In this document: positions 7,065-55,631 of the stretch, one piece after another | Layout: every line of letters starts with the position of its first letter | Numbering within the stretch: position 1 is the first letter of the stretch | Assembly: GCA_000024525.1 (NCBI GenBank) | Contig: CP001769.1 | Coordinates: forward strand, 5,055,001-5,119,000 | Direction of reading: 5' to 3' | DNA from: Spirosoma linguale DSM 74 | GTDB lineage: Bacteria > Bacteroidota > Bacteroidia > Cytophagales > Spirosomataceae | DNA length: 64,000 bases | Position numbers and translations under genes: made by a program | Notes under the pieces: generated by a model | What the model saw: the letters and a program-made list of their open reading frames with translations, nothing else | Told to the model about the DNA's origin: nothing | Database searches by the model: none

Positions 7065-7107
7065 AAGTGGTGAAGTGGTGAGTTATCAACTTACTACTTC
7101 ACCACTT
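7065..7107 (+). terminator. Hairpin terminator after the SDR gene
   Basis: Arms AAGTGGTGAAGT (7065-7076) and ACTTCACCACTT (7096-7107) are perfect 12-bp complements with a 19-bp loop. They are followed by a T-rich stretch, consistent with a rho-independent terminator 30 bp past the stop. Confidence 0.6.
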
Positions 7108-7177
7108 TTACTTTATCTTCGTGTTGACTTAGACACGGTGCTGTTGGTTCGGTGCCGGGGTATACCGTTGACTCAGC

Positions 7178-7708: not shown

Positions 7709-7711
7709 TTA

Positions 7712-8374: not shown

Positions 8375-8380
8375 GTATGT

Positions 8381-8466
8381 TTAACCGCAAAGGGGCAAAG
8401 ATGTCGTGAACTCCGCAAACTTTTTTCGTTGCGTTCTTTGCGACACCTTTGCCCCTTTGCGGTTAA
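8381..8466 (-). terminator. Long hairpin between the OmpA-type gene and nth
   Basis: Arms at 8381-8400 and 8447-8466 are perfect 20-bp complements enclosing 46 bp. The distal arm starts 6 bp past the stop of the minus-strand OmpA gene, so it most likely ends that transcript before nth. The proximal arm ends 6 bp upstream of the nth start, so nth may share the hairpin in its leader. Confidence 0.55.
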
Positions 8467-8472
8467 ACTACT

Positions 8473-9756: not shown

Positions 9757-10279
9757 TGAGTTTGTGTTTACTAACCTACTTTACGAATCCCTTCCCTTTG
9801 GTTTATAAGCGCCAGCTAGTCTACGAACTCGGGAACACCGCTGGCCGAGTCTTTTGGTGGCTAAAGCGTGTATACAAATGCGTACTGGATAACACTTAGA
9901 CAATGGCAGCTGTTCCAGAGTTTAACTGCTCTTTCTTAAAATTCCAGTCAACGATCTGTCCATACCTTTCGGCAATTCATTACAACAGCTACACTATTGA
10001 GCCAACAGCCAGCTCAGCAAAGTATAAATACTCATCCAGAAACTAGTTGAATCAAAAAATAAATATGAAAAAAGTTAGATTTAAGCATTTAGATACTATT
10101 TATAGCTAGTATAATCTTACACACATTTATAAGAATATTACATTACCTATAGACTAACAGTTAATTTATTCTATTGACATCTAAATTATTGTCCAAATTA
10201 TAATTTGTTAACCATTTTTTAATAGTGAGTTATAACTTGTAATTTTGCCATTCACTTAACATGTTCTCAACATACTACT
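9757..10279. other. Divergent intergenic region between OmpA-type and SusC genes
   Basis: 523 bp with no convincing gene, strongly A+T-rich in the half next to the SusC gene. A -7-like octamer TAATTTTG sits at 10240-10247, 32 bp upstream of the SusC start, but no TTG lies at the expected distance. The same octamer precedes the paralogous SusC gene at 20441. Confidence 0.45.
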
Positions 10280-15854: not shown

Positions 15855-15909
15855 AGCAGAACCAATATGGGTATTTTTTCCGTCTTTCCGACAACTGCCC
15901 CGAAGCAAA

Positions 15910-15943
15910 CAGGCGTGCCACGGTTCAAACTGTGGCACGCCTG
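15910..15943 (-). terminator. Terminator after SusD pair 2
   Basis: Arms CAGGCGTGCCAC (15910-15921) and GTGGCACGCCTG (15932-15943) are perfect 12-bp complements with a 10-bp loop that can pair further. The hairpin lies 27 bp past the minus-strand SusD stop. The expected T run is weak. Confidence 0.6.
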
Positions 15944-15970
15944 CGAGAAACCAGAATTACTCAACCGCCA

Positions 15971-17341: not shown

Positions 17342-17357
17342 AAGTTGTGTTCGTCGG

Positions 17358-39080: not shown

Positions 39081-40334
39081 CTACTTTATGTAATAGAAGA
39101 CCAGATTCATCATTTCATCGGTCGAGTTCCAGCCGTAGCCCACCGTTCGGGCAGGCCGGTTTGGATTGAGGGGGTTTTGGTCTGTGTTGTCGTAACTGGC
39201 TTCGGCAATGATAGTAGCCCCTTTAGGCAACACAAGCGGGGTTTGAAAGAAGTAAGACAGTTGCCAGTTATAATCCCAGGCATCAATCTTTATGAGATTG
39301 ATCACATCCCCATCGGGGGTAATGGCAAACGCCCGAACCGATTTCCCCAATCGATGCATGTGGGGTAAAACGGATAGAAGGCGGACTGTATCGCGTAGCG
39401 GGCCGTAGTTCATAAAAAACGTCGGCTTTGTATTGGCAGGCAGTTGAAAGGGTTGATTGGTCACATTATTCTCCGTAAGGGTAAGTGTTTTCACGACCCG
39501 TTCCACTGGTTTTCGGGCAAAATACAACCTCACTTCAGACTGGTCCTGATCGGCCTTTGCCGACGGAGCATAGTGTATATTAAGAATAAGGTCGCTACCC
39601 GCCCGAATTCGCTTGGCCGCTCCCTCCGGGAATGTTACCCGGTCATTACCCGGCACCCATCCATACAGAAACTCATCGGCCAGCGGTGTTTTCTGAAATT
39701 CCCGCAGTCGGGGGTCCTCTTCACTTATGCCGTCAATACCGGCCATCGTGCCCGTAGAGTCGATCATAAGCCGACTGTGGTGGAGTAACTTACGGTTACC
39801 AGGTACAAACTCAACGGCTTCGACCCATATGTCCTGCGTTAAGCCCATGGGTACGTGGAAATACCGAAAGTCCTCCTGCACGTCGCCCTTAATATTGTAA
39901 GGCTTCATACGCAGCACAAGGTCCGGCGTTCGGGCATTGCGTTCGGATTGGATCGCACCTCCTTTCGCCCCCACCCTATTATCCTTTCCCCGTACCTCTT
40001 TACCTTGTACCATCCCCCCCTGCACCCAGGCCTGAATGGTATTGATTTCGGCTTCTGACAGCCCCCGCTCGTTCGCATAATGCTGAAACTGCCGGTCGGC
40101 TGGAAAAGGCGGCATGTATCGAATCTGGGTGACTTTGGCAATAAATTTACCTCGTTTGGCTACGTCTTCGTAGGTCAGCAGGCTAAACGGCCCTAAACCG
40201 CCCGGGTGATGGCAGGGAGCACAATGATGAGCCAGAATGGGCTGAATATCGGCCGTATAAGTGGGCGTCTGCGCCAACAGCACAGGAGTCGCCAGCAGCA
40301 AAAGTAATAAAATTCCAATTGGCTCCTTTTTCAT
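39081..40334 (-). CDS. Secreted monohaem cytochrome fused to a copper type II monooxygenase-like domain
   Basis: The protein has 417 residues with a signal peptide (LLLLLLATPVLLAQ). Near residue 33-43 the sequence HHCAPCHHPGG supplies a CxxCH haem-binding site with PFSLLTYEDV after it, the usual start of this group. The C-terminal two thirds contain HHSRLMID, LNIHYAPS and LPHMHRLGKSV, the His-rich copper sites of ascorbate-dependent type II monooxygenases. An electron-transfer or oxidation role in the periplasm is likely. It converges with the redoxin, 8 bp apart. It was probably downstream of the fifth SusC/SusD operon before the island inserted. Confidence 0.8.
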   Translation of the reverse strand: MKKEPIGILLLLLLATPVLLAQTPTYTADIQPILAHHCAPCHHPGGLGPFSLLTYEDVAKRGKFIAKVTQIRYMPPFPADRQFQHYANERGLSEAEINTIQAWVQGGMVQGKEVRGKDNRVGAKGGAIQSERNARTPDLVLRMKPYNIKGDVQEDFRYFHVPMGLTQDIWVEAVEFVPGNRKLLHHSRLMIDSTGTMAGIDGISEEDPRLREFQKTPLADEFLYGWVPGNDRVTFPEGAAKRIRAGSDLILNIHYAPSAKADQDQSEVRLYFARKPVERVVKTLTLTENNVTNQPFQLPANTKPTFFMNYGPLRDTVRLLSVLPHMHRLGKSVRAFAITPDGDVINLIKIDAWDYNWQLSYFFQTPLVLPKGATIIAEASYDNTDQNPLNPNRPARTVGYGWNSTDEMMNLVFYYIK

Positions 40335-40403: not shown

Positions 40404-40845
40404 TTACCGCACCGTGAAATTCAGGCGGCAGTTGGAGTTAGCCTGTGATACCGGCGTTGGATCGAGGCAGATACTGTCTTCGTTCCACACTTTAAACACC
40501 AGGCCATCGGTGGTGGTAAGCTCCCAGGTAATTACAAACGCATCGGCATTGGCAACCGTTTTACCGCCTACCACCTGTGCACCTTGCAGACGGGCACCGG
40601 CCGGACGAGGCCGCGCCGGGTTTTCGAACACCTTTACCGCATTTACCTTGTCGTACTTAACGGTTGCATCCTTATAGAGGGCATAGATATCAGCAGGAGC
40701 AAGGCTAAACGCATTCCACTGGCGGTTAGCCGTTGGTGCATCAATCGTTTTCACTACTTTTCCGCCACCACCCAGCGATACTGTCTTTGGGTTTCCGTCG
40801 GGGTCAGTGTACGACTCGATCATGTCTACCTTGATAACTATCTTA
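40404..40845 (-). pseudogene. 3' fragment of the SusC/SusD-operon lipoprotein gene (left direct repeat)
   Basis: This 442-bp segment equals codons of the C-terminal two thirds of the gene at 54939-55631. I read one mismatch in 442 bp, in the region of 40734. It lacks the lipobox and N-terminus. An accidental frame continues to 40862 (MCEILT) but has no signal peptide. It is therefore a truncated copy that bounds the left side of the lanthipeptide island, not an expressed protein. Confidence 0.85.
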
Positions 40846-41121
40846 GTAAGGATTTCACACATATTGAATACCTCATTTTAGCTTACAAAGTAAATTAAAC
40901 TTACAAGGACATTTTTCATTTTACTAAACTTATCACAATAAATTTTTATCAAGATATATTATCATATAAAAATTAGTAAAAAAGATTAATTGAATGGCTT
41001 AAATTAATATTACTATGATTAATCACCTGACTAAATCTTTTTTACGCGTAAGGGTATAGATGTAAAAAAAGTATGTATTTTGCAGTGATAATTATTTTTC
41101 CACTATCACAACACTTTTTTT

Positions 41122-41406
41122 ATGAAAATGCTTAAACTCAGTGACCTCAAAGTACAAAGTTTCGTAACACAACTAAACGATTCTAATGAAGGAAATCGTT
41201 TGTGGGGTGGAAATACAGAACAGAATATGTGTACCGGTACAGATACATACACTAAGGACACCCACTGCAATTCTGCCCCAGGCTCTACTAATTGTCCACC
41301 AGCCATGTCCTATAACTGCACTTATGGCGTAAATCGTTGTACAGACGAGGGAATCAATTGTACGCTTTATTACTGTGAACAAAGTGCTACCCCCCCCTGC
41401 TACTAA
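41122..41406 (+). CDS. lanA: Lanthipeptide precursor with eight cysteines
   Basis: The product has 94 residues. The leader contains LKLSDLKVQSFVT (residues 4-16), the kind of L-x-L-x-x-L-x-V-x-SFVT box known from Bacteroidota class I lanthipeptide precursors. It ends in a double-glycine site LWGG (27-30), suited to the C39 peptidase of the exporter at 44028. The core would be residues 31-94 and holds Cys 37, 49, 58, 66, 73, 80, 85 and 93, with fifteen Ser/Thr. Each Cys has a Ser or Thr between it and the previous Cys, so eight non-overlapping rings are possible. The final TPPC resembles the T-P-G-C ring B type of nisin-like peptides. The upstream region 40846-41121 is A+T-rich; no clear promoter is assigned. 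Cleavage and ring pattern are inference. Confidence 0.85.
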   Translation: MKMLKLSDLKVQSFVTQLNDSNEGNRLWGGNTEQNMCTGTDTYTKDTHCNSAPGSTNCPPAMSYNCTYGVNRCTDEGINCTLYYCEQSATPPCY

Positions 41407-41938
41407 TTTGTGATATCCGATTATGTATTCAATAATGATGGATACCCAATCGGGTTTTCATCATTCAAAATAGGGATGAGCAATCAACTGATCATTTTTC
41501 GTTCCTATTTTGAATGATAAAACTATAAATAGTTTGCCTTTATGTATGGCTAAGATGATGTTGGGCATGGATACATTTGCGCATACTGTAGAAATAAATA
41601 TTGGTATTATTGGGAACAGATCAGATTCAAGTTAGTCAGTATATAAACAACTCTTTATGCAGGGTCGCCATCACTAATTTGTTTATATTACTCTTATTAA
41701 TCATTTCAAATAAAGTCTAAGTTATTATTAAAAACTTAGACGCAAAAATACATAGTGTTCGCCCAACAAAAAAGCGTTTCCTACTCGCACCATTTACTTT
41801 TGTATACCAGTCATGAATCATACGCCTTTATCAACCACCATTTTCTAGGTATCAACGCAGATAGGCTACCAACGGTTTATCAATATATAATTTAACAATT
41901 TCACTAAAAATCTTTTCTCGGGATTATATCTCTATCAT
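41407..41938. other. A+T-rich leader between lanA and lanC with two exclusive hairpins
   Basis: 532 bp with no supported gene. Two hairpins share bases: 41434-41446 with 41453-41465 (AATGATG/CATCATT and a CCC/GGG core), and 41460-41474 with 41504-41518 (15 bp perfect, ATCATTCAAAATAGG). Because 41460-41465 is used by both, only one can form at a time. They lie just past lanA and could lower or switch read-through into lanC. No T-run follows, so a classic terminator is not shown. A weak -7-like TACTTTTG is at 41795-41802. Confidence 0.5.
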
Positions 41939-43924
41939 ATGGTTTTTAAAAAAGTTAATACCTTATTACAACCTGAAGATGCATCAATTTTCTTATCAGA
42001 AGCAATATCAATTGGAACGTGGACTATTGAACAAGCGAAACGGTCTGAGCAAGGTATCTTCTGGACGATGTACTATAATGATGATGACTTAATCTCAGAA
42101 GCGGCAACAACGCATTTATACAGTGGAACTGCGGGAGTTATTCATTTCTTAATGGAATTATATCTAGTTACTAACGACCCTAATCTTGAAGAATATATTC
42201 ATGGTGGCTTAAGATGGTTAATCCATCATTCCAAATCGAGTGGTCTTGATTCATATAGCATGTTTACAGGACGCTTATCTGTGGCACTATGCTTTTTGCG
42301 TGCAGCATCACAATTCAACAATCCCAATTATCTTAATTTTGCATATTCTTCCCTAGAATCTGTGGAAAGTTTTCTAACGAGTTCGACAAACGATTTAATT
42401 AATGGTATATCGGGTTGCTTACTTGGCTTAGTACATTTTTATCACCATACAAAAGATGAATCAATTTTACCATTAGTATTCAAGTTTATTGACAGACTTC
42501 TTCAAAACTGCCGATTTCTTAGAGATAGTGTATATTGGGATTTAACAAAAGACCATACTCAACCATTGTGTGGTTTTTCTCACGGTCTTGCAGGAATTGG
42601 ATTTTGTCTTCTTGAAGTAGGGCACTATTTTAATTTACCATTTCTTACTGATTTGGCCCAAAAAACTTACCAAGCTGAGAACTATCATTTTCAACCTCAC
42701 AAATTGAACTGGCCTGATTTTCGAAAAGGCAGTTATTCAAAAAAGGATGAAAATGAATTTCGCCGTTCCCTAATCAACAAAGACTTATATCCATTTATTA
42801 AGGAAAAGTTTATGTTTGCATGGTGTCACGGCGCCCCCGGTATCGGGTTGTCAAGGCTTCGAGCCCATCAGATTACTGGCAACAAAACTTGGTTAAACGA
42901 TTTAGAAATGGCTATCACGTCTACTAGTCATGATTTAGATAATACCGGTATAAATTCCTATTGCTTATGTCACGGAGGTGCAGGCAATGCCGACCTGTTG
43001 ATCGAGGCATTTTTATATACTAACAAACAAGACTATTTTGAGGCCGCGCTTAAGGTTGGTAAAAAAGCGCTTCAACAAAAAGAGCAACTAGGGTATTACC
43101 GCCCTGGTTCTTTAACTGACAAGCCTGATGCTGCTCTTTTCACCGGTACATCTGGGGTTGGCCTTTTCTACTTGCGCTTGCTATTCCCATCGAGCATCCA
43201 CTCTGTTTTATATCCAGTATTACCTAAGCCTGAAATGCAATTTCACCTTAATAATAACCTATGGAGTGAAAAAAAAGCATCTTTCAATCTAGTTAAAGCT
43301 TCTTTTAGTAATGCAACGAATTATTTAAATTACAAGGGCATCAATGAAATTGGTCTTCCGATTGAATCAATTCTTGGAATTAATTTTCTTTCAAAAACCA
43401 CCCTTAAACATCATCTCATCTGGATACGATTAAAGTTATTCAAAAAAGACTATAAAAAATATGTATCTCTGCTAAAGCTAGACATAAAACTATTCAGATC
43501 CAGGCTAAGTTTCGAGTCAAACAATGTACTTTCCTATACAAAGTATAGATATCGCCTTGAACAGTCGCAATATCTTTTGTCAAAAGTTGAAAATCACATC
43601 AACACTTTCTTTAAACTTACCGCAGATGCCTCTTTAGTACAGAATTTGACAGAGCTAAATGAAATCCAATATTTTCTTGTTTACTATAATCCTTACATTA
43701 ACTCAACTTATTCAGTTATTAAAATTTCATCCCTCTCAAATGCCATTTTGACCTATTTGTTGACTAGTAATACACTTACATCGACTGTTAGATACGTAGA
43801 TGAACTTTTGGAAGATAATCATGACATTAGCCTTTTGCAAATTTCTGAGTTAGTTAGAAATCAACTTTGGGAATTTATTAAAATGGGGCTTCTCGAGGAG
43901 TCATCAACAGTAAATTCACAATAA
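41939..43924 (+). CDS. lanC: LanC-type lanthionine cyclase with long C-terminal extension
   Basis: The protein has 661 residues. Usual LanC proteins have about 400-430. The first 430 show the LanC barrel repeats (YSGTAGVIHFL, GFSHGLAGIG, WCHGAPGIGL, LCHGGAGNADL, TGTSGVGLF). The zinc ligands are Cys296, Cys344 and His345, and His215 matches the catalytic histidine. It closes thioether rings by adding Cys to dehydrated Ser/Thr. The extra 230 residues are Lys-rich in the middle, and the last 80 or so look like beta strands followed by a winged helix (LSNAILTYLLTS ... IKMGLLEE). This is like a PqqD/RRE-type leader-binding domain; that part is inference. There is no dehydratase domain, so it is not a LanM. 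Confidence 0.85.
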   Translation: MVFKKVNTLLQPEDASIFLSEAISIGTWTIEQAKRSEQGIFWTMYYNDDDLISEAATTHLYSGTAGVIHFLMELYLVTNDPNLEEYIHGGLRWLIHHSKSSGLDSYSMFTGRLSVALCFLRAASQFNNPNYLNFAYSSLESVESFLTSSTNDLINGISGCLLGLVHFYHHTKDESILPLVFKFIDRLLQNCRFLRDSVYWDLTKDHTQPLCGFSHGLAGIGFCLLEVGHYFNLPFLTDLAQKTYQAENYHFQPHKLNWPDFRKGSYSKKDENEFRRSLINKDLYPFIKEKFMFAWCHGAPGIGLSRLRAHQITGNKTWLNDLEMAITSTSHDLDNTGINSYCLCHGGAGNADLLIEAFLYTNKQDYFEAALKVGKKALQQKEQLGYYRPGSLTDKPDAALFTGTSGVGLFYLRLLFPSSIHSVLYPVLPKPEMQFHLNNNLWSEKKASFNLVKASFSNATNYLNYKGINEIGLPIESILGINFLSKTTLKHHLIWIRLKLFKKDYKKYVSLLKLDIKLFRSRLSFESNNVLSYTKYRYRLEQSQYLLSKVENHINTFFKLTADASLVQNLTELNEIQYFLVYYNPYINSTYSVIKISSLSNAILTYLLTSNTLTSTVRYVDELLEDNHDISLLQISELVRNQLWEFIKMGLLEESSTVNSQ

Positions 43925-44027
43925 CTATATATATATTAACAGTATACCTCAATAATTTCAGGAACTTTGTCTATTAACTCTTAAAGGTTTATACTTAAAA
44001 AGAGTTGTGCGGGCAATCTTAAAATAC

Positions 44028-46208
44028 ATGAAAAGATTTCCTTTTATTAAGCAGTTGTATGAGATGGATTGTGGCCCTACCTCATTATTAATGATAGCCC
44101 AGTATTACGGAAAACGATTTACTCTTCACAAACTTAAAGAAAAAGCAGGGAACAATCGGGCCGGCGTTTCCATTAGCGGATTGGCTAATGCTGCTGAAAG
44201 TATTGGCTTTAAAACATTATCAGCTCGTTTACCCTTCGACAAGTTTCGGGAATTAGCGCCCCTTCCGGCTATTGCTTATTGGCAGGGAAGACACTTCTTG
44301 GTTGTTTATAAAACAGATCGAAAATTCATTTATGTTTCAGATCCTGCCCGCGGTCAACTACGTTATACCCACAATGAATTTAAAAGTGGGTGGGTAGAGC
44401 AGGGTGACATTGGAAGTGTATTATTTGTTGAGCCTACACCCGCTTTTTATCAATATGAAGAAGATAAAGTAACACAAGATTCGGGATGGGAATATATATT
44501 TAACTATATCAAGCCATTTAAAGGATATATTTTTCAATTGTTTTTAGGTATGCTGCTTGGCAGTCTACTGATGCTAGTATTTCCCTTCTTAACTCAGTCG
44601 ATTGTCGATGTAGGAATTAATACCAATAATATTGGATTTGTAAACCTGATACTATTAGCGCAGTTGATGCTTACTATCAGTCGAACGAGTGTTGAGTTTA
44701 TTAGAAGTTGGCTGTTATTACACATTAGTTCTCGGCTAAGCATCAATATCTTAGCCGATTTCCTCATTAAAATGATGAAACTTCCAATTTCATTTTTCGA
44801 CACCAAAATGACAGGAGACCTACTGCAACGGATTGGGGATCATCGTCGTATAGAATCATTTTTATCATCCCAAACGCTCAGCCTTATCTTTTCACTTTTC
44901 AATCTGCTCATCTTTAGTGCTATAATGATATACTACAACCTCACTATTTTTGGAGTTTTTGTAGCTGGTAGTATTATATATATGTTCTGGGTGTTATCGT
45001 TCATGAATCGACGGCGTAGACTTGACTTTCGTATGTTTGATCAGCAGTCGGCAGCACAGTCAAACATTATACAGCTGATTACGAGTATTAGCGAGATTAA
45101 ACAACAAAACAGTGAACGCGTTAAGCGTTGGGAGTGGGAGCATTTACAAGCTCGTCAGTTCCGCATCAATCTTTACAAATTATCTTTAAACCAAATACAA
45201 GATGCAGGGTCAATGCTAATTAATGAAACGAGAAATATTTTTATCACTTATTTAACTGTCCGTTCAGTTATGAATGGGGACATTACATTTGGAACAATGC
45301 TCTCAATTCAATATATCATCGGGCAGCTTAACGGGCCTATTTTAACGTTTATAGGCTTCATGCACTCGTTTCAGGATGCGCAAATTAGTTTAGAGCGTCT
45401 TCAGGAAATATATAAACAACCCGATGAAGAACCCGATCCTAGCTCAAAAATTACCCGTCTTCCTGCTGACCAGTCGCTATCTCTTGATAATATCTCATTT
45501 TCTTATCCAGGCATTCAACAGCCTGTAATAGAGAGCCTTAGCCTTTATATTCCAGCAGGTAAAACTACAGCAGTTGTTGGATCAAGTGGTAGCGGTAAAA
45601 CTACATTGATCAAACTATTACTTAAATATTACCCCCCCACAAGTGGTGAAATTAGGCTTGGTAATGTTAACCTAAATAGTGTCAGCATTCGTCTCTGGCG
45701 CGACCAATGTGGTGTTGTATTACAAGATGGTGTACTTTTTAGCGATACTATTGCGCGTAATATTGCTGTAGCAGATGATGAAATTGACTGGGAACGTCTT
45801 GAATATGCTTGTAAAACAGCTAATATCGCATCATTCATTGAAACATTACCACAAAGCTATCGTACCAAAATTGGTAGTGAAGGGCAAGGACTAAGTCAAG
45901 GCCAAAAACAGCGTATCCTACTTGCTCGTGTTGTGTATCGAAACCCCGCAATAGTTATTCTCGACGAAGCTACCAATGCCCTTGACGCGAATAATGAGCG
46001 TACAATCTTGGCGAATATGAACGAGTTTCTACACACCAAGACGGTAGTAGTAGTAGCACACCGACTTAGCACAGTTATTAATGCTGACCAAATTGTCGTA
46101 CTTAATCAGGGACGTATCCAAGAATGCGGAACCCACGACGAACTTATACTTAAACATGGTGCTTACTTTCAATTAGTCCGCAACCAATTATCACTAGGTA
46201 CAGATTAA
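44028..46208 (+). CDS. lanT: Peptidase-containing (C39) ABC exporter of the lanthipeptide
   Basis: ATG 44028 (MKRFPFIKQLYEMDCGP) is preferred to the GTG at 44007, because it places the peptidase motif at the usual distance. The protein has 726 residues. The N-terminal C39 peptidase has Gln9, catalytic Cys15 (DCGPTSL), His89 (GRHFLVV) and Asp105 (SDPARG). Six membrane helices follow (about 165-450), then the ATPase with Walker A beginning at Gly518 (GSSGSGKTT), signature LSQGQKQR and Walker B IVILDEATNAL. It should remove the leader after LWGG and pump the peptide into the periplasm, with the HlyD adaptor completing the route. It overlaps the convergent dehydratase gene by 4 bp at the stops. 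Confidence 0.92.
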   Translation: MKRFPFIKQLYEMDCGPTSLLMIAQYYGKRFTLHKLKEKAGNNRAGVSISGLANAAESIGFKTLSARLPFDKFRELAPLPAIAYWQGRHFLVVYKTDRKFIYVSDPARGQLRYTHNEFKSGWVEQGDIGSVLFVEPTPAFYQYEEDKVTQDSGWEYIFNYIKPFKGYIFQLFLGMLLGSLLMLVFPFLTQSIVDVGINTNNIGFVNLILLAQLMLTISRTSVEFIRSWLLLHISSRLSINILADFLIKMMKLPISFFDTKMTGDLLQRIGDHRRIESFLSSQTLSLIFSLFNLLIFSAIMIYYNLTIFGVFVAGSIIYMFWVLSFMNRRRRLDFRMFDQQSAAQSNIIQLITSISEIKQQNSERVKRWEWEHLQARQFRINLYKLSLNQIQDAGSMLINETRNIFITYLTVRSVMNGDITFGTMLSIQYIIGQLNGPILTFIGFMHSFQDAQISLERLQEIYKQPDEEPDPSSKITRLPADQSLSLDNISFSYPGIQQPVIESLSLYIPAGKTTAVVGSSGSGKTTLIKLLLKYYPPTSGEIRLGNVNLNSVSIRLWRDQCGVVLQDGVLFSDTIARNIAVADDEIDWERLEYACKTANIASFIETLPQSYRTKIGSEGQGLSQGQKQRILLARVVYRNPAIVILDEATNALDANNERTILANMNEFLHTKTVVVVAHRLSTVINADQIVVLNQGRIQECGTHDELILKHGAYFQLVRNQLSLGTD

Positions 46209-47188
46209 CAGGTACTTAATAGCTTTTGCATAATATAGCCAATGTACCCCTCATCATAGTTGCTAATACCTAAACGATTGTTAGACATGTGGATATAGCT
46301 ATGTAGCAAATATTGTCGCCCTGCAATAGATAAAGGATTAGTGGTATAGGGAGTTTTCATTTGGCCGGACTGAACTAACACGTCAATATCTCGACGGTGC
46401 TGGCGCATATGTTCAATCCAATCCATATACCAAGATTCTTGAAAGTCAGATTGGGTATTTAACATTATCCATAAGTTTGAGAAAAAAGGGGTTAGGGCAA
46501 GTTTTTGTTTATCGAAAATAGCTTCGTACTTATTGTATGTATCTAAAAGCATATTGTAATTCGATGTGTTTTTTAAATTTTGAGTCTTCAGCATATACAT
46601 TGACCAATTAGCGGTGAATGTATTCCAGAAATCAATGCGTTCGGCAATAGTATCAAGCATGAAAAATGAATAAACAGCATGGAGTTGTATAGCTAAACCT
46701 ACCGAATGGCTATAAGTCAATTCGGCTGAAGCGATTCCCCTGCCTATGGTTTCGGATGAGGCTTGAAAATGTTTCTCAGCCAATCTGATTGCAATTGGCC
46801 CTCCATAACGGTCAATTTCCGGTTCATAAGCAATCCATACCAATGAATCATTAGGATACCATTCTGATAAACGTGTAATGACCTTTTTTGAAGGGCGTTG
46901 AATAAAGTATATTTTGGTTTTCTCTTCCAGAAACGGCACAGCTTCGGCAAGAAGTTTGTCAGGTTGCCCCAACAACCGTAATCGCAGATGGGGGCCATTC
47001 TCAGCATATCGAATAAAGAAGAACCCTTCGATTATTTCCTGCTTTCGTAATGTCTCAGCCCAACAAAAAAGACTATCTATAATTAGATGTGTTAAATCAT
47101 CCGTGTAGAAGATATGTCCACTGAGCCAAGTACGTGGTCCAAGCGTTGTGTTATGTAAGTTAGCCGCAAAATGTTCGTTCCAGTTCAT
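46205..47188 (-). CDS. Split lantibiotic dehydratase, elimination subunit
   Basis: The protein has 327 residues. It is the thiopeptide-type/SpaB C-terminal domain that removes glutamate from glutamylated Ser/Thr to give Dha/Dhb. Typical blocks are FFIRYAENGPHLRLRL, YEPEIDRYGG and SYIHMSNNRLG. As a separate gene it must act with the glutamylation subunit immediately upstream. The genes overlap as ATGA (start 47188-47186, stop 47187-47185), a sign of translational coupling and fixed stoichiometry. Its stop overlaps that of the convergent exporter. Confidence 0.88.
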   Translation of the reverse strand: MNWNEHFAANLHNTTLGPRTWLSGHIFYTDDLTHLIIDSLFCWAETLRKQEIIEGFFFIRYAENGPHLRLRLLGQPDKLLAEAVPFLEEKTKIYFIQRPSKKVITRLSEWYPNDSLVWIAYEPEIDRYGGPIAIRLAEKHFQASSETIGRGIASAELTYSHSVGLAIQLHAVYSFFMLDTIAERIDFWNTFTANWSMYMLKTQNLKNTSNYNMLLDTYNKYEAIFDKQKLALTPFFSNLWIMLNTQSDFQESWYMDWIEHMRQHRRDIDVLVQSGQMKTPYTTNPLSIAGRQYLLHSYIHMSNNRLGISNYDEGYIGYIMQKLLSTC

Positions 47189-50073
47189 TGTGGTTGATTA
47201 GTATACCATTGAACTAAGCATTCACTAACTAGCGATTTGTCTGCAACCGTTGCCATCTGGTTAATCCCAGGTAACATTTCTACTATTCGATAGCTGTCAG
47301 GAGCTTTGACCATCATTTTCTCAAATAACAACACTAAAAGTGGATGTGTAAAGTCAATATATTGAGGCTTATAGTCGTCGCGGGTAAGCTTACGAGCCTG
47401 TTCGCCGACGGGCTGGTATCCGCTATGAGATTCATTAATTGTTACAAATACTTGATTGGGTATTTTATGCCTCTGTTGCCACTGAAGTAATTTATATGCG
47501 TAAGCCGCATCTGTTTCAAGTGGGTCTCGTTGTGGAGTTTCTTTGGTAGATACTCGCCAATACCGTCTCTGTAATATAATTTGTTTGTTATAAATTATTC
47601 GCGGAAACTGCTGTATTCCTAAGTTTGGCTGGAGTTCAGCTGCTACTGTGTTAGCTACAGATGTAAGCCTTTGATAGCTTGGATACTCGGGTAACGTAAA
47701 TTGTGTCGCAAGTCTAAATAAGGGCGAACGTCCGGTTGGACTCTGGAATCCTAAATCGAAACAAAAGGCCGGTTTGCCTGTTGGTATGTGAGTTAACTGT
47801 AGTTTATTGTAAACTAATTGCAAATGCAAATCGGATACAGGTATTTGTTGTTGAATCGGTAATGAGGTATGACCATTAGGTAACTGAAGCTCATACGGCA
47901 TCAATGGGGGATGAATATTTGCATTAAAGTAAGATGCATCAACACATTCAAGAAGAATTACTTCGTCGGCGTCTTGCTCATTCCAAATTCGTTGTGTTGC
48001 CAGTACATCGGGGTCAAGGATATGCAAAAAACGGCTAAACATACGTCCCCAGCCACTTAACACTGAATTAACAACACCTATTAATTGATTGTCTTCAGTG
48101 AAGAATTGAACAAATGCGGCTTTTGACTCCGTTTTGATGCGTGAAGGAGTAGGCAAAGTTACAATAGATAAGAGGGAATCTAAATCCGCTTCCGACATTT
48201 CGATAGTTGTTGGAAGTAACTGATTCTGCAATTGAGACAAACAGAAATTATAAATATTTTCATTAATAATGTTAAGAATAGACTTACCCTTAACATTTAT
48301 TGATTCAGGTACATTTTCACTTATTCTGTCAATATCATTTACCTTAGTATTGCTAATTGCATTTGCTTTTTCATGATTTTTGCGACGTATCTCTACCTGA
48401 GCAGGCATTTGTACAATGCGGTAATAATCCTCGTAAAAAGTCAATAACGGAACTGATAGTTTATTTGGATAATAGGATTTGAAAAAATTCAGCATTTGCT
48501 GTTGTTCATTTTCCAACGAAGAAATCCCATGCAGAAAATTAGAAATCTTTTCCAATTGTTCAGTCCAATTCTTCAATCCACTGATAGATAAAGAAGCTTC
48601 GATGGATGTAGTGGTATCTTCATAAAACAATTGTTTTGGAAGTAAACGAAATACAGTTGAAGCCTGATAACGAAATATTCCATCTGTTTCCTCTAAATTA
48701 TATTCATTATCCTTTTCAACCTTAAGTTTTACATCCTGACCAACTTGTAATCTAGTATTTACAGGCTCTCTCTTGGCTTCGCGATAGGCATTAGAAATTT
48801 CTTCAGGTGTACGACGCTCTTCAACTGGTAACCCTGCAGCCTTATGAATATCCCAGAATAACGCCCTAAAATTATTGTGTGCTTGAGCAAGAATACGCAT
48901 TCGTACAGTCGACGAAGCAGTAGAAAACTGATTAGCCCAACCACGTAAGTCATTTAACCCTTGTACTAATTCCATAGCCATAGGTACATTTTCTGTAGCC
49001 AGTTTATCTAGCCATAAGATGAGTATTTTATCCCAATCAGGATCTAGTCCTGAAGATGGCCAAACCAATTCTATAAACCCAATCTCGATCAATTGCCGCA
49101 GATAGGTTTCTATTGCATCAGGATCAGCATCGACTAATTCACCCAAAAGTTCCATTAATTTACCAAATGTAAGTTTTGGCTCTTGCTGAAGTATTTCTAA
49201 AACCGCATTGGGAACTTGTTGTATTGGCAAGCGTTGGAATGATTCAACATTGTTCACATTCGTAAGATATATCCATTGACTTTCTTCCGATACTTGGCGA
49301 AGAGTTGGATTAGGGCGTAAATTTACATAAGCAAAAATTGGCTTGTAAGCCCATATTAAATCCCTTAGAGCCTTATAAATATGATTGTTTAGCCGAACAT
49401 GTCCTATTATTTGCAATTCATGGTCATATTCAAGTTTATATAATAAGTTAGTCTTATCATATAATCGACCCAGAGCTATATTTGTGAATGTACTGAATGG
49501 CGATGTTTTAGTTACCATCCGAGTCAGGTATTTCAATAAACTTTGTTCGGTATTATTCTCACGTTTTCGAAATAATTTCGGTGTTGCATGGGTAAATGAA
49601 TCTAAGTTAGCTACTAAATCAGGACTTGATAAAGCTAATCCTTGCTTCAAAGTTTCATTACACGCCAACGTCTGTAAATAGCTTCTGTGAGCCATTAAAC
49701 TATTTTGATACGTTTCTTCCCAAAGCTGCCAAGAATTGATAGCAATATTTTGTGTCTCTCGGTAGGTATATATTTTACCTTTCAAATCAGAGGAGAGCCG
49801 ACCGATTAAAGCCGCTTCGACTTCAGTTTTAATCGGTCGGTCATTATAGAGATTTCTCCTAAAATTATGTACTTGCTTCTGCCAAACCCCCTCTTGAGTT
49901 TGCAAATAGGCAAGTAAATCAATGCTTATAACCTGCTTCTGTTCTTGACAATCAGCATGCAGAGAAATAATTTTATTAAATAGATCATTAAGTACTTGAG
50001 ATTGTTGAGATTGAATCAAATCAATACTTTCTCCTCCAACGCGACAAATTAAATATGGAAATAGATAAATCAT
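47185..50073 (-). CDS. Split lantibiotic dehydratase, tRNA-Glu-dependent glutamylation subunit
   Basis: The protein has 962 residues. It begins MIYLFPYLICRVGGESID, close to the start of LanB proteins (usually RxP), though the arginine is late. The block RKRENNTEQSLLKYLTRMVTKTSPFSTFTNIALG, read in parts, carries the conserved TSPFSTFT segment of the Lant_dehydr_N domain. The role is glutamylation of precursor Ser/Thr from Glu-tRNA. The C-terminal elimination domain of full LanBs is missing and is provided by the next gene. The HlyD gene lies 244 bp upstream on the same strand, so they may share a transcript, and the IS21 insertion may have a polar effect. Confidence 0.88.
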   Translation of the reverse strand: MIYLFPYLICRVGGESIDLIQSQQSQVLNDLFNKIISLHADCQEQKQVISIDLLAYLQTQEGVWQKQVHNFRRNLYNDRPIKTEVEAALIGRLSSDLKGKIYTYRETQNIAINSWQLWEETYQNSLMAHRSYLQTLACNETLKQGLALSSPDLVANLDSFTHATPKLFRKRENNTEQSLLKYLTRMVTKTSPFSTFTNIALGRLYDKTNLLYKLEYDHELQIIGHVRLNNHIYKALRDLIWAYKPIFAYVNLRPNPTLRQVSEESQWIYLTNVNNVESFQRLPIQQVPNAVLEILQQEPKLTFGKLMELLGELVDADPDAIETYLRQLIEIGFIELVWPSSGLDPDWDKILILWLDKLATENVPMAMELVQGLNDLRGWANQFSTASSTVRMRILAQAHNNFRALFWDIHKAAGLPVEERRTPEEISNAYREAKREPVNTRLQVGQDVKLKVEKDNEYNLEETDGIFRYQASTVFRLLPKQLFYEDTTTSIEASLSISGLKNWTEQLEKISNFLHGISSLENEQQQMLNFFKSYYPNKLSVPLLTFYEDYYRIVQMPAQVEIRRKNHEKANAISNTKVNDIDRISENVPESINVKGKSILNIINENIYNFCLSQLQNQLLPTTIEMSEADLDSLLSIVTLPTPSRIKTESKAAFVQFFTEDNQLIGVVNSVLSGWGRMFSRFLHILDPDVLATQRIWNEQDADEVILLECVDASYFNANIHPPLMPYELQLPNGHTSLPIQQQIPVSDLHLQLVYNKLQLTHIPTGKPAFCFDLGFQSPTGRSPLFRLATQFTLPEYPSYQRLTSVANTVAAELQPNLGIQQFPRIIYNKQIILQRRYWRVSTKETPQRDPLETDAAYAYKLLQWQQRHKIPNQVFVTINESHSGYQPVGEQARKLTRDDYKPQYIDFTHPLLVLLFEKMMVKAPDSYRIVEMLPGINQMATVADKSLVSECLVQWYTNQPQ

Positions 50074-50317
50074 ATTTTTTTAGTTCAAAACAAAGCACAA
50101 TGTAAAGTTAATGCTAATTGCAAATCTAAATTATTATTTTAATTTAATTTTTAAATATAGATTACGGCTCTACTATTTAGTCTAGAGTAATTTACTCGAT
50201 TCGTTTTAAGGTGGATTAAGTATATAAAATATTTTAAGCACATAATTGTTAATTATATAAATGGCAATAAAGGTGTTTAGTGCCGAGAACTCACTTAAAT
50301 TCAGTCATCAAAAAATC

Positions 50318-51409
50318 CTATGAAAACCGAACAAAAATGGAGCGTATCTGATAAAATACTCTATTGAATAGACTAATATCAGCAGTTATCACATCAGCAC
50401 TTCCGGTCATCTCCTGCCTGAATAATAATTTTTTATTATAATTAGTTATAAGGCCTTTGGGAAACGTAATTCGAACTGTGTATACGCCATCGCGTGGTAC
50501 CGATGACACTGCTGCAATATATCCTACGACAAAGCCAAACTCATTGTATGGAAAATTATCAAACTTAACGTTGACCTTTTGTCCAACCTCTACTTTGCCA
50601 GACCTTGCGATAGGGACAAATGCTTGTCCATAAATTGGCTGCATTGACGGTACAATCGTTATCAGTTCAGTTCCTGCTGTTATATAACGGCGGTTATTCA
50701 AGAAACGTAGCAATGTAACCCGCCCTGCTATTGGTGCTTCCAACCAATATGTTTGTTGATAAGTAATTAGTTGGCTTTCTAGTTGGCGATGGTAAGTCTT
50801 TATATCAGTAAGTAGTCGCTCATTAATCTCCAACTGTCTTACATCAAGGTCAATTATTTGGGCTTCAAACTGTTTTATTAAAATCTGGTTATTAGCAAGG
50901 CTAATCTCAATAGCTTCTAACTGCTGTTTTACGTGAAGATACTCTTGTTGGCTGCGAGTAAACTCAACTTCAGCAATAACTCTATCTGAAAAAAGTTTTC
51001 GACTGGTGTTTAAAATCTTTTCAGCTAATGCTAAATCTTCGAGTCGGGTATTCTTTTGACGTTCCAATTGTAATTGCAGATTGCTATAAAGTCGAATGCG
51101 CTGTTTAATACCTATTATCTGTTTATCGTAACTATTAACCTTCTTTGAAAGCTGATACGTATTTAAGGCGTTCTTTAAGTTTAAGTATACAACTTGAAGT
51201 TCACCTATTTGCAAATCATCCGGTAGTTTAATGGGAAGCAAATCAGGCTTAAACTGAAGTAACCTTACTTTTAGCTCTGCCAAAGCTTGAACCAATTGCT
51301 GTACATTATCGAAACGAGCTTCATTTTCAATCGTAGCTAACAATTGATCAGAAGTAACAATCTGGTTATCAGATACGTGTAAATTAATTTTCCCAGATAC
51401 ACGAGCTAC
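50318..51409 (-). pseudogene. HlyD-family secretion adaptor, 3' part (interrupted)
   Basis: The frame reads from the IS junction through RVSGKINLHVSDNQIVTSDQ and on to the stop at 50318. It contains the long coiled coil (about 51300-50800, Leu/Gln/Glu-rich), then EAPIAGRVTLL and GQKVNVKFDNFPYNEFGFV, the barrel-sandwich and beta-barrel of a membrane fusion protein. Translation from the apparent internal TTG at 51343 would lack the membrane anchor and the first lipoyl half. It should link the ABC exporter to an outer-membrane channel. It is split from its 5' part by the IS21 element. Confidence 0.88.
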
Positions 51410-51414
51410 TATGT

Positions 51415-51457
51415 ATTCCGGACAAAGTGACCCAGGCGTTTCGGAGCAAACTGACCC
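51415..51457 (-). repeat. Left-end IS21 transposase-site repeats (two copies)
   Basis: Two about 20-bp repeats in inverted orientation to those at the right end: 51415-51433 (ATTCCGGACAAAGTGACCC) and 51438-51457 (GTTTCGGAGCAAACTGACCC). Such repeats are the transposase-binding sites of IS21 elements. Confidence 0.8.
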
Positions 51458-51497
51458 ACCCCGCCTGTGGGTAGGAACCGCTCAAAGTTAGTACACT

Positions 51498-52241
51498 TTA
51501 TTTCTCAGCCGCAAGACTTTGCTTGCGTCGCATCGATTCACCCTTCAACTCCATCCGATGAGCCTTGTGAGTTAGCCGGTCCAGGATGGCATCGGCCAAG
51601 GTAGGATCGTCGATGTATTCGTGCCATTTACTCACCGGCAGTTGCGAGGTGATGATCGTAGCGGCCTTGCCATGCCGGTCCTCCATGATCTGTAACAGGG
51701 CCAATCGGCCATTCTGATCAAGGGGTTGTAAGCCCCAGTCATCCAGAATGAGCAGGTGTTGCCGCTCCAGACGACTCATCTCCCGCTGGTAGGAGCCGTC
51801 GGCTTTAGCCAGTTGCAGTCGCTGTATGAGCCGGATCAGATTGTGATAACCCACCCGATACCCCAGCTGACAGGCCTGATAGCCCAGGGCCGAAGCCACG
51901 TAACTTTTGCCGCAGCCAGTTGATCCCGTCAGGAAGATATTCTCGGCTCGATCGATGAAGCGGCAGTCGGCCAAACGAAGCACCAGCGTCTTATCCAGGT
52001 TGCGGCCAGGGCCGTAGTGCAACTCTTCCAGCGAGGCCTGATAGCGAAAGCGGGCCGCCCGGATGGCCATCTGGGTGCGTCGGTGTTGACGGTACTCATG
52101 TTCAGCTTCAGTAAGCTGGGCCAGCAGTTCGTCGGCAGGCGGTTGCTGGTGAAGGGGTAGGCGAAGCAGGGTCTCGAAGGCCTGATACATGCCCACCAGT
52201 TTAAGGTCCCGTAGTCGGTCAAGTGTCGCTTGGTTATTCAT
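51498..52241 (-). CDS. istB: IS21-family helper ATPase IstB
   Basis: The protein has 247 residues. AAA+ motifs are Walker A GSTGCGKSYVA and Walker B LLILDDWG, with SQLPVSKWHEYIDDPTLADA and DRLTHKAHRMEL at the C-terminus, typical of IstB/DnaC-like proteins. It loads the transposase and chooses target DNA. It lies 48 bp after istA in the same unit. The length is normal for the family. Confidence 0.95.
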   Translation of the reverse strand: MNNQATLDRLRDLKLVGMYQAFETLLRLPLHQQPPADELLAQLTEAEHEYRQHRRTQMAIRAARFRYQASLEELHYGPGRNLDKTLVLRLADCRFIDRAENIFLTGSTGCGKSYVASALGYQACQLGYRVGYHNLIRLIQRLQLAKADGSYQREMSRLERQHLLILDDWGLQPLDQNGRLALLQIMEDRHGKAATIITSQLPVSKWHEYIDDPTLADAILDRLTHKAHRMELKGESMRRKQSLAAEK

Positions 52242-52289
52242 ACTTTTTATTCCCTTTTGTAGTTGGTACGTGTGTTGATTGGCTCGGCT

Positions 52290-53831
52290 TTACTGGTAGG
52301 CTGATGCGCCCCGGATGTTTTCATGGCTGGGTACTGAGCTGACAGGACTGGCATCGGAGAGCGTATCCAGCCCGCGTTCGATGATGGATCGGATGACTTT
52401 GTAGCTCACGCTCTGGTAGCACAACGCCCGTTGGCAGGCCCGCTCCAGACGTTCTCTACCCACTTTCTTTTCCAGACTTAGTACACCCTGGCACGACTTA
52501 TAAGCCTGTTCGGGATGCGCCCGGCTCGTTAGGATGGCTTCGACGGCCTGCCGGGTTTGGGGGCCAATGCGGTCGGCCCGACGGACGAACGTCTCCGGGC
52601 TCCAGTCACTGATCCACTGATGGGCTGGGGGCAAATGCTCTTTGAGTGTCGAGTAATGGTACTGTCCCTGTAATCGCTGGTGAGTCGCAATACGCTGGTG
52701 CTGGCAGTAGACTTCAACGCTTGACGCCGTGTAGATCAGCCGTACCCACTGGCCGATGTAGCGATAGGGTACGCTGTAATAATGCTTGTCTTCTGACAGC
52801 AGTACATGGCCGTTTTTCTGAACCCGGCTCCCCGCATAGTGTTTGATGAGATAAGCCGTGTTGGGCAACCCCATCAAGTGCATTCGCTCCCGCTCCTCGA
52901 ACTGCGACTGCCGACTATGGCCCCGGTTCTGAAAGCGCATTTGGTTGTGGGCGTCGAGTAAGGGGCGGATAGCCGCATTGAGATCGTCAAGTCGATGAAA
53001 GACCTCATTGCGCAGGGGAGCGTAGATGCGTCGATAGAGGATGTTGACGGCTCCTTCGACCAGAGCTTTGTCGCGGGGCTTACCGCTCCGGGCCGGCAGG
53101 ATCGTCGTTTGATAATGGAGCGCAAAGTCAGCCAGCGTCTCATTGATCTGGGGTTCATAGCGATCCGAGCGAATCACAGCCGCTTTGAGGTTATCGGGCA
53201 CGATGGCCGCTGGTACGCCCCCGAAGTAATGCAGGGCGTTTTGCAGGGCGGTGATGAAGTCCTCCTTGCGCTGAGTAGCCACTACCTGGGCGTAAGTGAG
53301 CTGACTGCAACCCAGCACGGCCACGAAGAACTCGACCGGCCTAACCTCCCCTGTTGTCTGGTCGACCAGCGAGAGCCGCTTGCCCGCAAAGTCGACGAAG
53401 AGTTTGTCGCCCGCTTTGTGCTCAATGTGCATGCTGGTCTGCTGCCGCTGGCTCCAAAGCTGATAATAGTGGCAGAACTGCGTATACTGATAGCCGTTGG
53501 GATGTTCGGCTTTGTAATCCAGCCAAAGACTATACCGGGTAACGCCGGGTCGGGTCAGTTCGCGGTCAATCTGAGCGAATCGTTGTTGAAGAATAGTTAG
53601 GGGGGCGTCGGGTGAGGGCGCAGGCGGACGACTTTGTACCAGCTCATCCAACTGTTGGTCGGAGAGTTGCGGGAGGGAAAGCGTTGCCGGATCGGGAAGC
53701 ATGCGCAGGTAGCCCCGGACGGTATTGCGAGCCAGGCCTAGCGAACGGGCAATATCCCGGATAGACTTATGTTGCTGCTGGAGAAGCAGAATCTGACGGA
53801 GTAGGTGCATAGGAAGACGCTGGTTGGCCAT
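52290..53831 (-). CDS. istA: IS21-family transposase IstA
   Basis: The protein has 513 residues. The N-terminal helix-turn-helix is HKSIRDIARSLGLARNTVRG. The integrase core contains a DDE triad in FVDFAGK, VPDNLKAAV and the DKALVEGAVNIL helix. The tail is a normal beta-rich end. It cuts and joins the element ends. It appears complete and uses the host-like G+C-rich codon style. Confidence 0.95.
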   Translation of the reverse strand: MANQRLPMHLLRQILLLQQQHKSIRDIARSLGLARNTVRGYLRMLPDPATLSLPQLSDQQLDELVQSRPPAPSPDAPLTILQQRFAQIDRELTRPGVTRYSLWLDYKAEHPNGYQYTQFCHYYQLWSQRQQTSMHIEHKAGDKLFVDFAGKRLSLVDQTTGEVRPVEFFVAVLGCSQLTYAQVVATQRKEDFITALQNALHYFGGVPAAIVPDNLKAAVIRSDRYEPQINETLADFALHYQTTILPARSGKPRDKALVEGAVNILYRRIYAPLRNEVFHRLDDLNAAIRPLLDAHNQMRFQNRGHSRQSQFEERERMHLMGLPNTAYLIKHYAGSRVQKNGHVLLSEDKHYYSVPYRYIGQWVRLIYTASSVEVYCQHQRIATHQRLQGQYHYSTLKEHLPPAHQWISDWSPETFVRRADRIGPQTRQAVEAILTSRAHPEQAYKSCQGVLSLEKKVGRERLERACQRALCYQSVSYKVIRSIIERGLDTLSDASPVSSVPSHENIRGASAYQ

Positions 53832-53840
53832 AGGTTCGGA

Positions 53841-53965
53841 GGGTCAATTTGTTCCGAAACTACGGTGATTAGGCGGCTCCTGCTCAGCGGGCGGGGTGGG
53901 TCAGTTTGGCCCGAAATGGGTGGGTCAACTACATCCGAAACAGGTGGGTCAGTTTACTCCGAAAT
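53841..53965 (+). repeat. Right-end IS21 transposase-site repeats (four copies)
   Basis: Four copies of the consensus GGGTCARTTTNNTCCGAAAY start at 53841, 53898, 53922 and 53946. The last three are spaced by exactly 24 bp. The left end carries only two, in inverted orientation. Confidence 0.85.
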
Positions 53966-53970
53966 ACACA

Positions 53971-54176
53971 GCTACGACACCAGTGGGCGGAACGAGTGTT
54001 GTTAATGTTAGTCGGGCAGACACTATATCTGGATACTTAATAAATGTTGACAGTAGTAACACGAAGGCAATGCACCCCAGAAATAATGAAATACCCCAGC
54101 GTACAATCCAACGAGGTATCTGGCCTATAATATCTTGAATTTCGACAGAATATTGTGATGAATCATTTTCAGCCAT
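53971..54176 (-). pseudogene. HlyD-family secretion adaptor, 5' part (interrupted)
   Basis: From ATG 54176 the frame encodes a short cytoplasmic part, a membrane helix (WGISLFLGCIAFVLLLSTF) and the start of the periplasmic part ending VPPTGVVA. It then runs into the IS and stops at 53949 after VYFGVN. Removing 2561 bp of IS and one gctac rejoins it in frame to the 3' part (VVA + RVSGKIN), total 430 residues, a normal HlyD length. The product of this piece alone is a 75-residue stub. Confidence 0.88.
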
Positions 54177-54938
54177 TTGCTACATCTATACTTAAAATTT
54201 ACTGAATTTAAGAACTATTTTACATTCCCTAAACTACTCCTTTCTTTAAATAGGTAATATAAGTCCTTAATTGAAATAATAAAAGTAAAGTATCAAACTT
54301 ACTAAAATAATACTTTTTATATTTACCTTACATTTTCATTTTGAATCCATACTTACATTGCTTATTAGTTTTTCTTATTTTTCCGAATTCGCTTTATTAA
54401 CGCAGACCGTTTCACGAATCGAACTTTGTGGAAATACATAAAGGCCACTTCGCAGACTGTGCGGTAAAATAATAAACTATCATCTATTAAACACTTAGAC
54501 AGACTCAACTTTGAATTGGCTTTAAAGTTTTTTTTGGTTACCTTCTATAAACATTTCCCATATACTCTCAAATTAACCACCATTATTTCAACGGCTAATT
54601 GTATTCGCTTCGGCCGTCAGCTTAAAGGCGCTGTCATTCTGGTATGTCTAAGCCATCGAACTTTTTCGTAATTCTAAGAAGTAGGTTCACGGATACGCAC
54701 CGCTCATCAGCGACGTTCATAGTATCAGCTTGTGGAAGGATAAAAAAGATTGTGCTTTTGTAAATTTACTCTTCTCTGTAAGTGATGATTTTATTATTTA
54801 AGGTATTGAAAGTCACCCGAACCCTGCACTATATAGCAATCCAAGGTTTTTACAGGAAGCTCAAGCAGAAATAGTTCTGTCAAAAAATAACAGCAACGGG
54901 TTATCCCGCTGCTGCTAGCAAATGAATTGTTGACGCTC
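54177..54938. other. A+T-rich intergenic region upstream of the HlyD gene
   Basis: 762 bp with no supported gene on either strand. It should hold the promoter of the HlyD-dehydratase unit. A -7-like TAAGTTTG on the minus strand lies at 54294-54301, 118 bp upstream of the start, without a TTG partner. The right part, from about 54580, is less A+T-rich and may be chimeric DNA carried in with the repeat. It ends with a hairpin (54891-54914). Confidence 0.5.
54891..54914 (-). terminator. Terminator of the fifth SusC/SusD operon
   Basis: Arms CAGCAACGGG (54891-54900) and CCCGCTGCTG (54905-54914) pair in 9 of 10 positions with a 4-base loop and a T-run (minus strand). The sequence resembles the hairpin at 40355-40382 but has diverged. 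Confidence 0.7.
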
Positions 54939-55380
54939 TTACCGCACCGTGAAATTCAGGCGGCAGTTGGAGTTAGCCTGTGATACCGGCGTTGGATCGA
55001 GGCAGATACTGTCTTCGTTCCACACTTTAAACACCAGGCCATCGGTGGTGGTAAGCTCCCAGGTAATTACAAACGCATCGGCATTGGCAACCGTTTTACC
55101 GCCTACCACCTGTGCACCTTGCAGACGGGCACCGGCCGGACGAGGCCGCGCCGGGTTTTCGAACACCTTTACCGCATTTACCTTGTCGTACTTAACGGTT
55201 GCATCCTTATAGAGGGCATAGATATCAGCAGGAGCAAGGCTAAACGCATTCCACTGGCGATTAGCCGTTGGTGCATCAATCGTTTTCACTACTTTTCCGC
55301 CACCACCCAGCGATACTGTCTTTGGGTTTCCGTCGGGGTCAGTGTACGACTCGATCATGTCTACCTTGATAACTATCTTA
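54939..55380. repeat. 442-bp right direct repeat of the island
   Basis: Identical to 40404-40845 except for one base by my reading (g to a in GGCGGTTAGC). The match stops exactly at 55380/40845, where the two sequences become unrelated. On the other side it stops at the stop codon, after which only a similar hairpin is shared. Confidence 0.95.
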
Positions 55381-55631
55381 CTAACCGTCAGCTTATTATC
55401 AAGCGATACCCAACGGATTTTGAAGTCAATCTTTGCGGCATCCTGTCCTGTGAGCGGAAAGTTTCTGGCGTTGGCCGCAAAATTGGCTTTAGCGGTTTCG
55501 GCTACTCCGTCAAAAACCCCCAGGGCGTGTACACCTGGCTCCCAAGCTTTGTTTGGGTTAAGTGACTCATCCTGGCAACCGACCAGCAGCATAACTGCCG
55601 CCGTTAATGAATATAAAAATAGTTGTTTCAT
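54939..55631 (-). CDS. Surface lipoprotein of the fifth SusC/SusD operon (unknown family)
   Basis: The protein has 230 residues. The lipobox LLVGC lipidates Cys19. The mature part has KIDFKIRWVSLDNKLTVSKI, VDMIESYTDPDGNPKTV, a Gly-rich LGGGGK, then TANRQWNAFSL, ITWELTTTDGLVF and a CRLNFTVR end. The strand-rich pattern suggests a sandwich fold. I know no named family. It lies 70 bp after the SusD gene and is likely a surface substrate binder. Its 3' 442 bp is duplicated at the far end of the island. Confidence 0.75.
   Translation of the reverse strand: MKQLFLYSLTAAVMLLVGCQDESLNPNKAWEPGVHALGVFDGVAETAKANFAANARNFPLTGQDAAKIDFKIRWVSLDNKLTVSKIVIKVDMIESYTDPDGNPKTVSLGGGGKVVKTIDAPTANRQWNAFSLAPADIYALYKDATVKYDKVNAVKVFENPARPRPAGARLQGAQVVGGKTVANADAFVITWELTTTDGLVFKVWNEDSICLDPTPVSQANSNCRLNFTVR

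Follow-up and report, generated by a model that had tools for sequence, protein, structure and literature searches.

A probably acquired, pinensin-type class I lanthipeptide island with a split dehydratase, a long LanC and an interrupted adaptor in Spirosoma linguale

What kind of lanthipeptide pathway is lodged in the genome of Spirosoma linguale DSM 74, where did it come from, and can it still work? The question arises from a stretch of 64,000 nucleotides (positions 5,055,001 to 5,119,000 of contig CP001769.1, assembly GCA_000024525.1), hereafter the window, in which an initial annotation, made from the letters alone, had recognized a complete class I lanthipeptide system with a split dehydratase. 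The island is indeed present, and every part named there was found again in the list of open reading frames (ORFs) and in Pfam and NCBIfam profile scans. Our reading, to which we give a probability of about 0.8, is that a class I lanthipeptide pathway of the pinensin type, itself a known kind, reached the genome by horizontal transfer and has had its adaptor disrupted in this strain. A precursor rich in cysteine, a LanC cyclase and a C39 ABC exporter follow one another on the plus strand, while an HlyD adaptor and the glutamylation and elimination subunits of LanB converge upon them from the minus strand, the two units sharing 4 nt at their stop codons. This is the arrangement that had been announced, except that the adaptor survives only as two pieces around an element of the IS21 family. 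'Complete' was therefore too strong a word for this strain. The main features are as follows (aa, amino acids).

40846-54938: the island as first bounded, its edges corresponding to a 446-bp direct repeat
41122-41406, plus strand: precursor, 94 aa
41460-41518, plus strand: RNA hairpin, between precursor and LanC
41939-43924, plus strand: LanC cyclase, 661 aa (cyclase domain, residues 58-419; helical part, residues ~441-548)
43604-43900, plus strand: predicted domain of LanC with the fold of a RiPP recognition element (RRE), residues 556-654
44007-46208, plus strand: C39 peptidase-containing ABC exporter, 733 aa (PF03412, PF00664 and PF00005, all above cut-off)
46205-47188, minus strand: LanB elimination subunit (glutamyl lyase), 327 aa (PF14028, 140 bits)
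47185-50073, minus strand: LanB glutamylation subunit (LanB-N), 962 aa (PF04738, above cut-off), with an RRE region at residues ~245-345, placed by alignment with TbtB and the known range of the TbtB RRE

The assignment to class I and the kinship with pinensins, both proposed at the outset, are supported by the leader of the precursor, by the residues of LanC and by the alignments of LanB. The leader (41122-41211, 30 aa) ends with two glycines at residues 29-30 and matches the NCBIfam family NF038180, leader_pinensin, with 36 bits for a cut-off of 24. The core (41212-41403, 64 aa) comprises 8 Cys, 4 Ser and 11 Thr, hence 15 Ser/Thr in all, and among the 64 ORFs of 60-130 aa starting with ATG in the window the precursor alone has at least eight Cys. 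Cleavage would take place after the second glycine (GG30), and, judging from its family, the C39 ABC exporter would both remove the leader and export the product. No already characterized lanthipeptide came up when the precursor was searched against proteins: only the query's own record was retrieved, by a search that requires shared words of five residues. The same search missed the precursors of related clusters, where the same kind of leader is found and part of it is shared, so that its silence says little about whether the precursor is absent elsewhere. Between precursor and cyclase, the segment 41440-41540 folds with -35.8 kcal/mol (z score -6.9 against 200 shuffles). This hairpin is likely an attenuator or a partial terminator, which may allow the cell to make more precursor than enzyme.

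That two genes stand for one dehydratase is borne out. A profile of the lyase aligned to the NisB and MibB chains places R69, R71, E124, R127 and H300 upon the elimination residues of NisB (HxRxR, E..R and SxxH...NR), and these are invariant in all 17 aligned proteins. Its partner matches TbtB (6ec7) with an E-value of 3.5e-51, over profile positions 7-338 and 505-935, and carries the TbtB-type YxxRxxxKTSP block as Y182, R185, K189 and S191. In nisin biosynthesis Y80, R83, R87 and T89 of NisB matter for dehydration, according to the parts of the report consulted (PMC4341554), and the four residues found here are presumably their equivalents. Loss of the glutamylation or elimination residues had been named as a reason to abandon the proposal; the elimination residues and the Tyr/Arg/Lys/Ser block of the glutamylation subunit are in place.

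LanC keeps its zinc ligands C296, C344 and H345, together with the acid histidine H215, all invariant in 25 aligned sequences, and continues with a long C-terminal extension, which the initial annotation had flagged and left without an identity. In its predicted model, three strands followed by three helices match known RREs over the full domain, leader-bound ones included, and the extension as a whole resembles TglI and 3dee, in which an RRE is likewise combined with a helical part. The structural matches comprise TglI/DUF2063-type proteins as well as discrete RREs (PqqD, lasso B1, TbiB1). In contrast to all of these, the unit forms here the C-terminal end of a LanC cyclase. The model thus predicts an RRE fold for the extension. 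Support for this fold at the level of sequence is weaker. It includes a comparison of the extension by hhalign with 17 segments of the same enzymes, in which the RRE segment of LanB-N came out best, at an E-value of 1e-4 and a probability of 29.9% over 91 columns (the other 16 remained at or below 2.3%). The Pfam model of PqqD matches two of 21 extensions (best E-value 0.0046), the NCBIfam model of PqqD also two (best 0.043) and that of the HvfC RRE one (0.027), and the extension of the window is never among them; taken by itself, it gives nothing in Pfam up to an E-value of 5 and a chance-level match in NCBIfam. This weaker support lowers our confidence to the value given above. No description of a LanC-RRE fusion was found in the literature searched (including PMC12710340, PMC7470986, PMC7268733, PMC9889658 and PMC10352776, each covered in part), a corpus that excludes supplements and most subscription journals.

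The adaptor gene is interrupted after about 70 residues. The features are these.

50318-51409, minus strand: HlyD C-terminal piece (PF13437), corresponding to residues 80-440 of a 445-aa Adhaeribacter relative
51405-51409: target-site duplication GCTAC, left
51410-53970, minus strand: IS21-family element lying between the HlyD pieces (NF038214 and NF033546, above cut-off)
51498-52241: IstB, within the element
52290-53831: IstA, within the element
53971-53975: target-site duplication GCTAC, right
53971-54176, minus strand: HlyD N-terminal piece, corresponding to residues 25-86 of the same relative, containing a hydrophobic stretch that, on visual inspection, looks like the membrane anchor

The ends of the element were set by comparing five copies, this one and four others. 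Its segment 51420-53970 is repeated without change on three contigs of the genome, 18 times if this copy is counted, which suggests a recent burst. With HlyD split in this way, dedicated export has probably been lost in this strain, unless another adaptor substitutes for it: the genome encodes other HlyD-like proteins, the best of which, with 29% identity, is encoded at C1:948348 by an open frame of 452 aa.

Where did the island come from? It is flanked by a direct repeat of 446 bp, present at these two places only in the genome, the copies of which agree at 444 positions and differ at 40725 and 40846.

40404-40849, minus strand: left copy, the displaced 3' end of a 230-aa target gene
54939-55384, minus strand: right copy, inside the intact 230-aa gene (54939-55631)

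This target gene is held by eight of the 29 genomes searched, its own included, and the seven others all belong to the same genus. In each of these seven congeners the homologue of 39081-40334 directly follows the gene and no match to LanC was found in the 10-13 kb examined, so that the site is empty in all of them. Without the insertion sequence the island has a GC content of 36%, against 50-52% in its flanks. No close LanB-N was found elsewhere in the genus among 36 genomes, own included; matches at E <= 0.001 exist in 11 of them, again counting its own, the best in other strains being proteins of 865-898 aa, 32-34% identical over some 315 residues. Downstream of the repeat the tails of the two copies have diverged, each having its own terminator-like hairpin. 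The repeat may thus stem from gene conversion, or from recombination with a donor bringing in a second 3' end. The ten proteins scanned with Pfam and NCBIfam include no integrase besides the IS21 transposase. A plasmid origin was also considered and found unsupported: a tblastn search of LanC against 72,556 plasmid records matched 49, every one at less than 60% identity and over less than 80% of the query.

How far could the same genes tell another story? The lyase might be of the kind found in the SapT system, performing syn-elimination to give allo-methyllanthionine, since split LanB systems with syn-lyases have been described, as far as the sections consulted report (PMC9011353, PMC9486935). 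That system is likewise of class I with a split LanB (SptBa/SptBb), but SptBb lacks the catalytic histidine and has a leucine in place of an arginine (PMC9011353, in part), whereas here H300 aligns with the histidine of NisB and R127, which we take to be the arginine lost by SptBb, is present. Split systems with anti-lyases are on record too, in the portion of PMC9486935 consulted. We rejected the SapT-type alternative, very improbable in our view, on the strength of H300 and R127. As the catalytic residues lost by SptBb are kept and split anti-lyase systems exist, anti-elimination and ordinary methyllanthionine are predicted. Hardly tenable is the idea that the PF14028 protein is a thiopeptide-type [4+2] pyridine synthase leading to a thiopeptide-like macrocycle. 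The thiopeptide-type model TIGR03891 does match above its cut-off (97 bits) and the pyridine-synthase model NF045556 gives 39.9 bits, but the latter falls far below its cut-off of 325, the elimination residues of NisB, histidine included, are invariant in the 17 proteins aligned, and a LanC with its zinc ligands is encoded next door. The absence of YcaO from the ten proteins scanned (Pfam, NCBIfam) also counts against it, and on these models and residues we rejected it.

Two other alternatives deserve more attention. The extension might have the fold of an RRE without binding a leader, and act only as an anchor between LanC and the split LanB subunits or the exporter. LanB-like RREs of thiopeptide clusters have been described as possibly vestigial, in what was consulted of PMC7470986, extension sequences are poorly conserved (10-18% identical to that of the window), and LanB-N already has an RRE region. 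Yet the predicted fold is complete, its full-domain matches include RREs with a bound leader, and the extension is kept in 28 of 28 complete LanCs linked to LanB among the matches listed; we consider mere docking unlikely, if worth keeping in mind. That the island is decaying, with no exported product in this strain, is a possibility to which we give slightly less than an even chance, and one compatible with the acquired, pinensin-type pathway that we favour. The interruption of HlyD by an IS21 element with its target duplication speaks for it, as do the 18 identical copies that make the insertion look recent. On the other side, the remaining genes of the island are uninterrupted ORFs, the catalytic residues of LanC and of both LanB subunits are kept, and the HlyD-like protein at C1:948348 might substitute.

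Returning to the favoured pathway, how widely is it shared? We surveyed 80 LanC loci, among the matches listed in genome contigs, a scope that holds for the counts that follow. A LanB like that of the window lies within the stretch fetched in 30 of them, with both subunits in 24. Two of these 30 LanCs are cut by a contig end and the other 28 are all long, 26 having been scored automatically and two (L020, 663 aa; L074, 628 aa) by ORF length. Among the 50 loci without such a LanB a single LanC, L053, is long. These 50 gave no match either to the two full-length LanBs of a second cluster of the genome, so that they are no control for systems with a full-length LanB. In a tree of LanC cores the window groups, with full support, among 29 rows, namely L053 and 28 linked to LanB (window included); all 31 LanB rows and L053 stand apart from the other 49 (100/98), in an analysis where the bootstrap had not settled. 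Represented among these 32 rows are Bacteroidota, Acidobacteriota, Ignavibacteriota, Gemmatimonadota, Planctomycetota, KSB1 and Aminicenantes, in many cases by metagenome bins. Long LanC looks like one old fusion, widely shared, and because the tree shows shared ancestry we do not take Fisher's test of long LanC against LanB as a repeated association. Loci chosen by the leader instead (leader_pinensin, 19 regions of nine other genomes) include a LanC in five, all long (632-778 aa), four with LanB. This check is only partly independent, L131, L152 and L163 being apparently the same records as L038, L013 and L029, while L132 and L159 are new.

The enzymes could work in the following order. The RRE of the glutamylation subunit would hold the leader of the 94-aa precursor while glutamate is loaded from Glu-tRNA onto Ser and Thr of the core; the separate lyase would then eliminate glutamate in the canonical anti manner, giving dehydroalanine and (Z)-dehydrobutyrine. 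LanC, gripping the same leader with its own C-terminal RRE, would close up to eight (methyl)lanthionine rings, after which the C39 domain of the exporter would cut behind GG30 and the product would leave by way of HlyD, acting as a bridge, and of an outer-membrane channel whose gene lies elsewhere. We would lay even odds on a broader proposal, that the LanC-RRE fusion arose once and spread over several phyla, and that the cyclase recruits the leader independently of the dehydratase, in a relay of two RREs (LanB-N and LanC). If so, one enzyme set could process leader-tagged precursors scattered elsewhere in a genome. Two genomes, G464 and G479, have 12 and 7 leader_pinensin matches over many contigs, and eight of the nine regions examined there hold no LanB or LanC like those of the window, a scatter that points to a single set of enzymes acting in trans.

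Among known systems, TbtB of thiomuracin is also a stand-alone glutamylation protein, with the same KTSP-type block, and belongs to a thiopeptide pathway that is not known to include a LanC. The elimination residues and the LanC fold are common to NisB/NisC and to the enzymes of the window, but in the nisin system LanB is one protein and the NisC chain, of 409 residues, has no extension. Nisin has an FxLD leader and a separate protease, NisP. Clusters of Adhaeribacter, Rhodocytophaga and Fulvivirga with split LanB, C39 and HlyD have the same enzymes, a long LanC and mostly double-glycine leaders. Their LanB-N are 28-37% identical to that of the window, while the cores look unrelated; their HlyD is one ORF where the contig is complete, in contrast to the split found here, and all genes of the Adhaeribacter cluster lie on one strand rather than converging. 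With the pinensins of Chitinophaga the island has in common the leader family NF038180 and, following Walker et al. (2020; PMC7268733) on Bacteroidetes, the combination of a split LanB with a LanM-like LanC. The pinensin cyclase may well share the LanC-RRE architecture. Pinensin is a two-component product with two methyllanthionine rings, as far as the source consulted describes it, against one precursor here, with a 64-aa core and eight Cys. That class I lanthipeptides are mostly Gram-positive, as initially stated, holds less well: in the parts consulted of the same paper Bacteroidetes account for nearly a quarter of class I LanCs, and the phylum is already credited with split LanBs, with C39 proteases accompanying double-glycine leaders, and with LanM-like LanCs that go with the precursor family of the pinensins. 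Pinensins were then the only lanthipeptides isolated from the phylum (PMC7268733).

Substrate recognition by class I LanC is understood only in part. For binding, the maddinglicin cyclase MadC depends on the FxLx motif of the leader, as described in the portion of the source at hand. A cyclase with a built-in RRE fold, if the model is right, would make class I substrate hand-over directly testable and might provide a portable, leader-addressed cyclase; cyclases of the MadC type are not known to use an RRE for binding the leader. The predicted architecture makes this system a variant worth testing, and long LanC together with split LanB is a genome-mining handle for lanthipeptides of Bacteroidetes.

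Some observations stand beside this account. The Cys-His-Gly motif was not found in two long LanCs located next to LanB, at 9842-11725 of L074 and near 7092-8258 of L159, which may have no cyclase activity or work in another way. In Chryseobacterium, the long LanC of L053 (9845-11758) has an outer-membrane efflux protein and a C39 exporter beside it; the 21 kb fetched yielded no LanB. Finally, the second class I-type cluster of the S. linguale genome (L165, C1:5719000-5738500; features 6943-10125, 10165-11409, 15646-18813 and 11496-12301) encodes two LanBs of full length (1060 and 1055 aa), in each of which both Pfam domains occur, a short LanC (414 aa) lacking the extension, and three small precursor-like ORFs with GGG leaders, two of which are identical.

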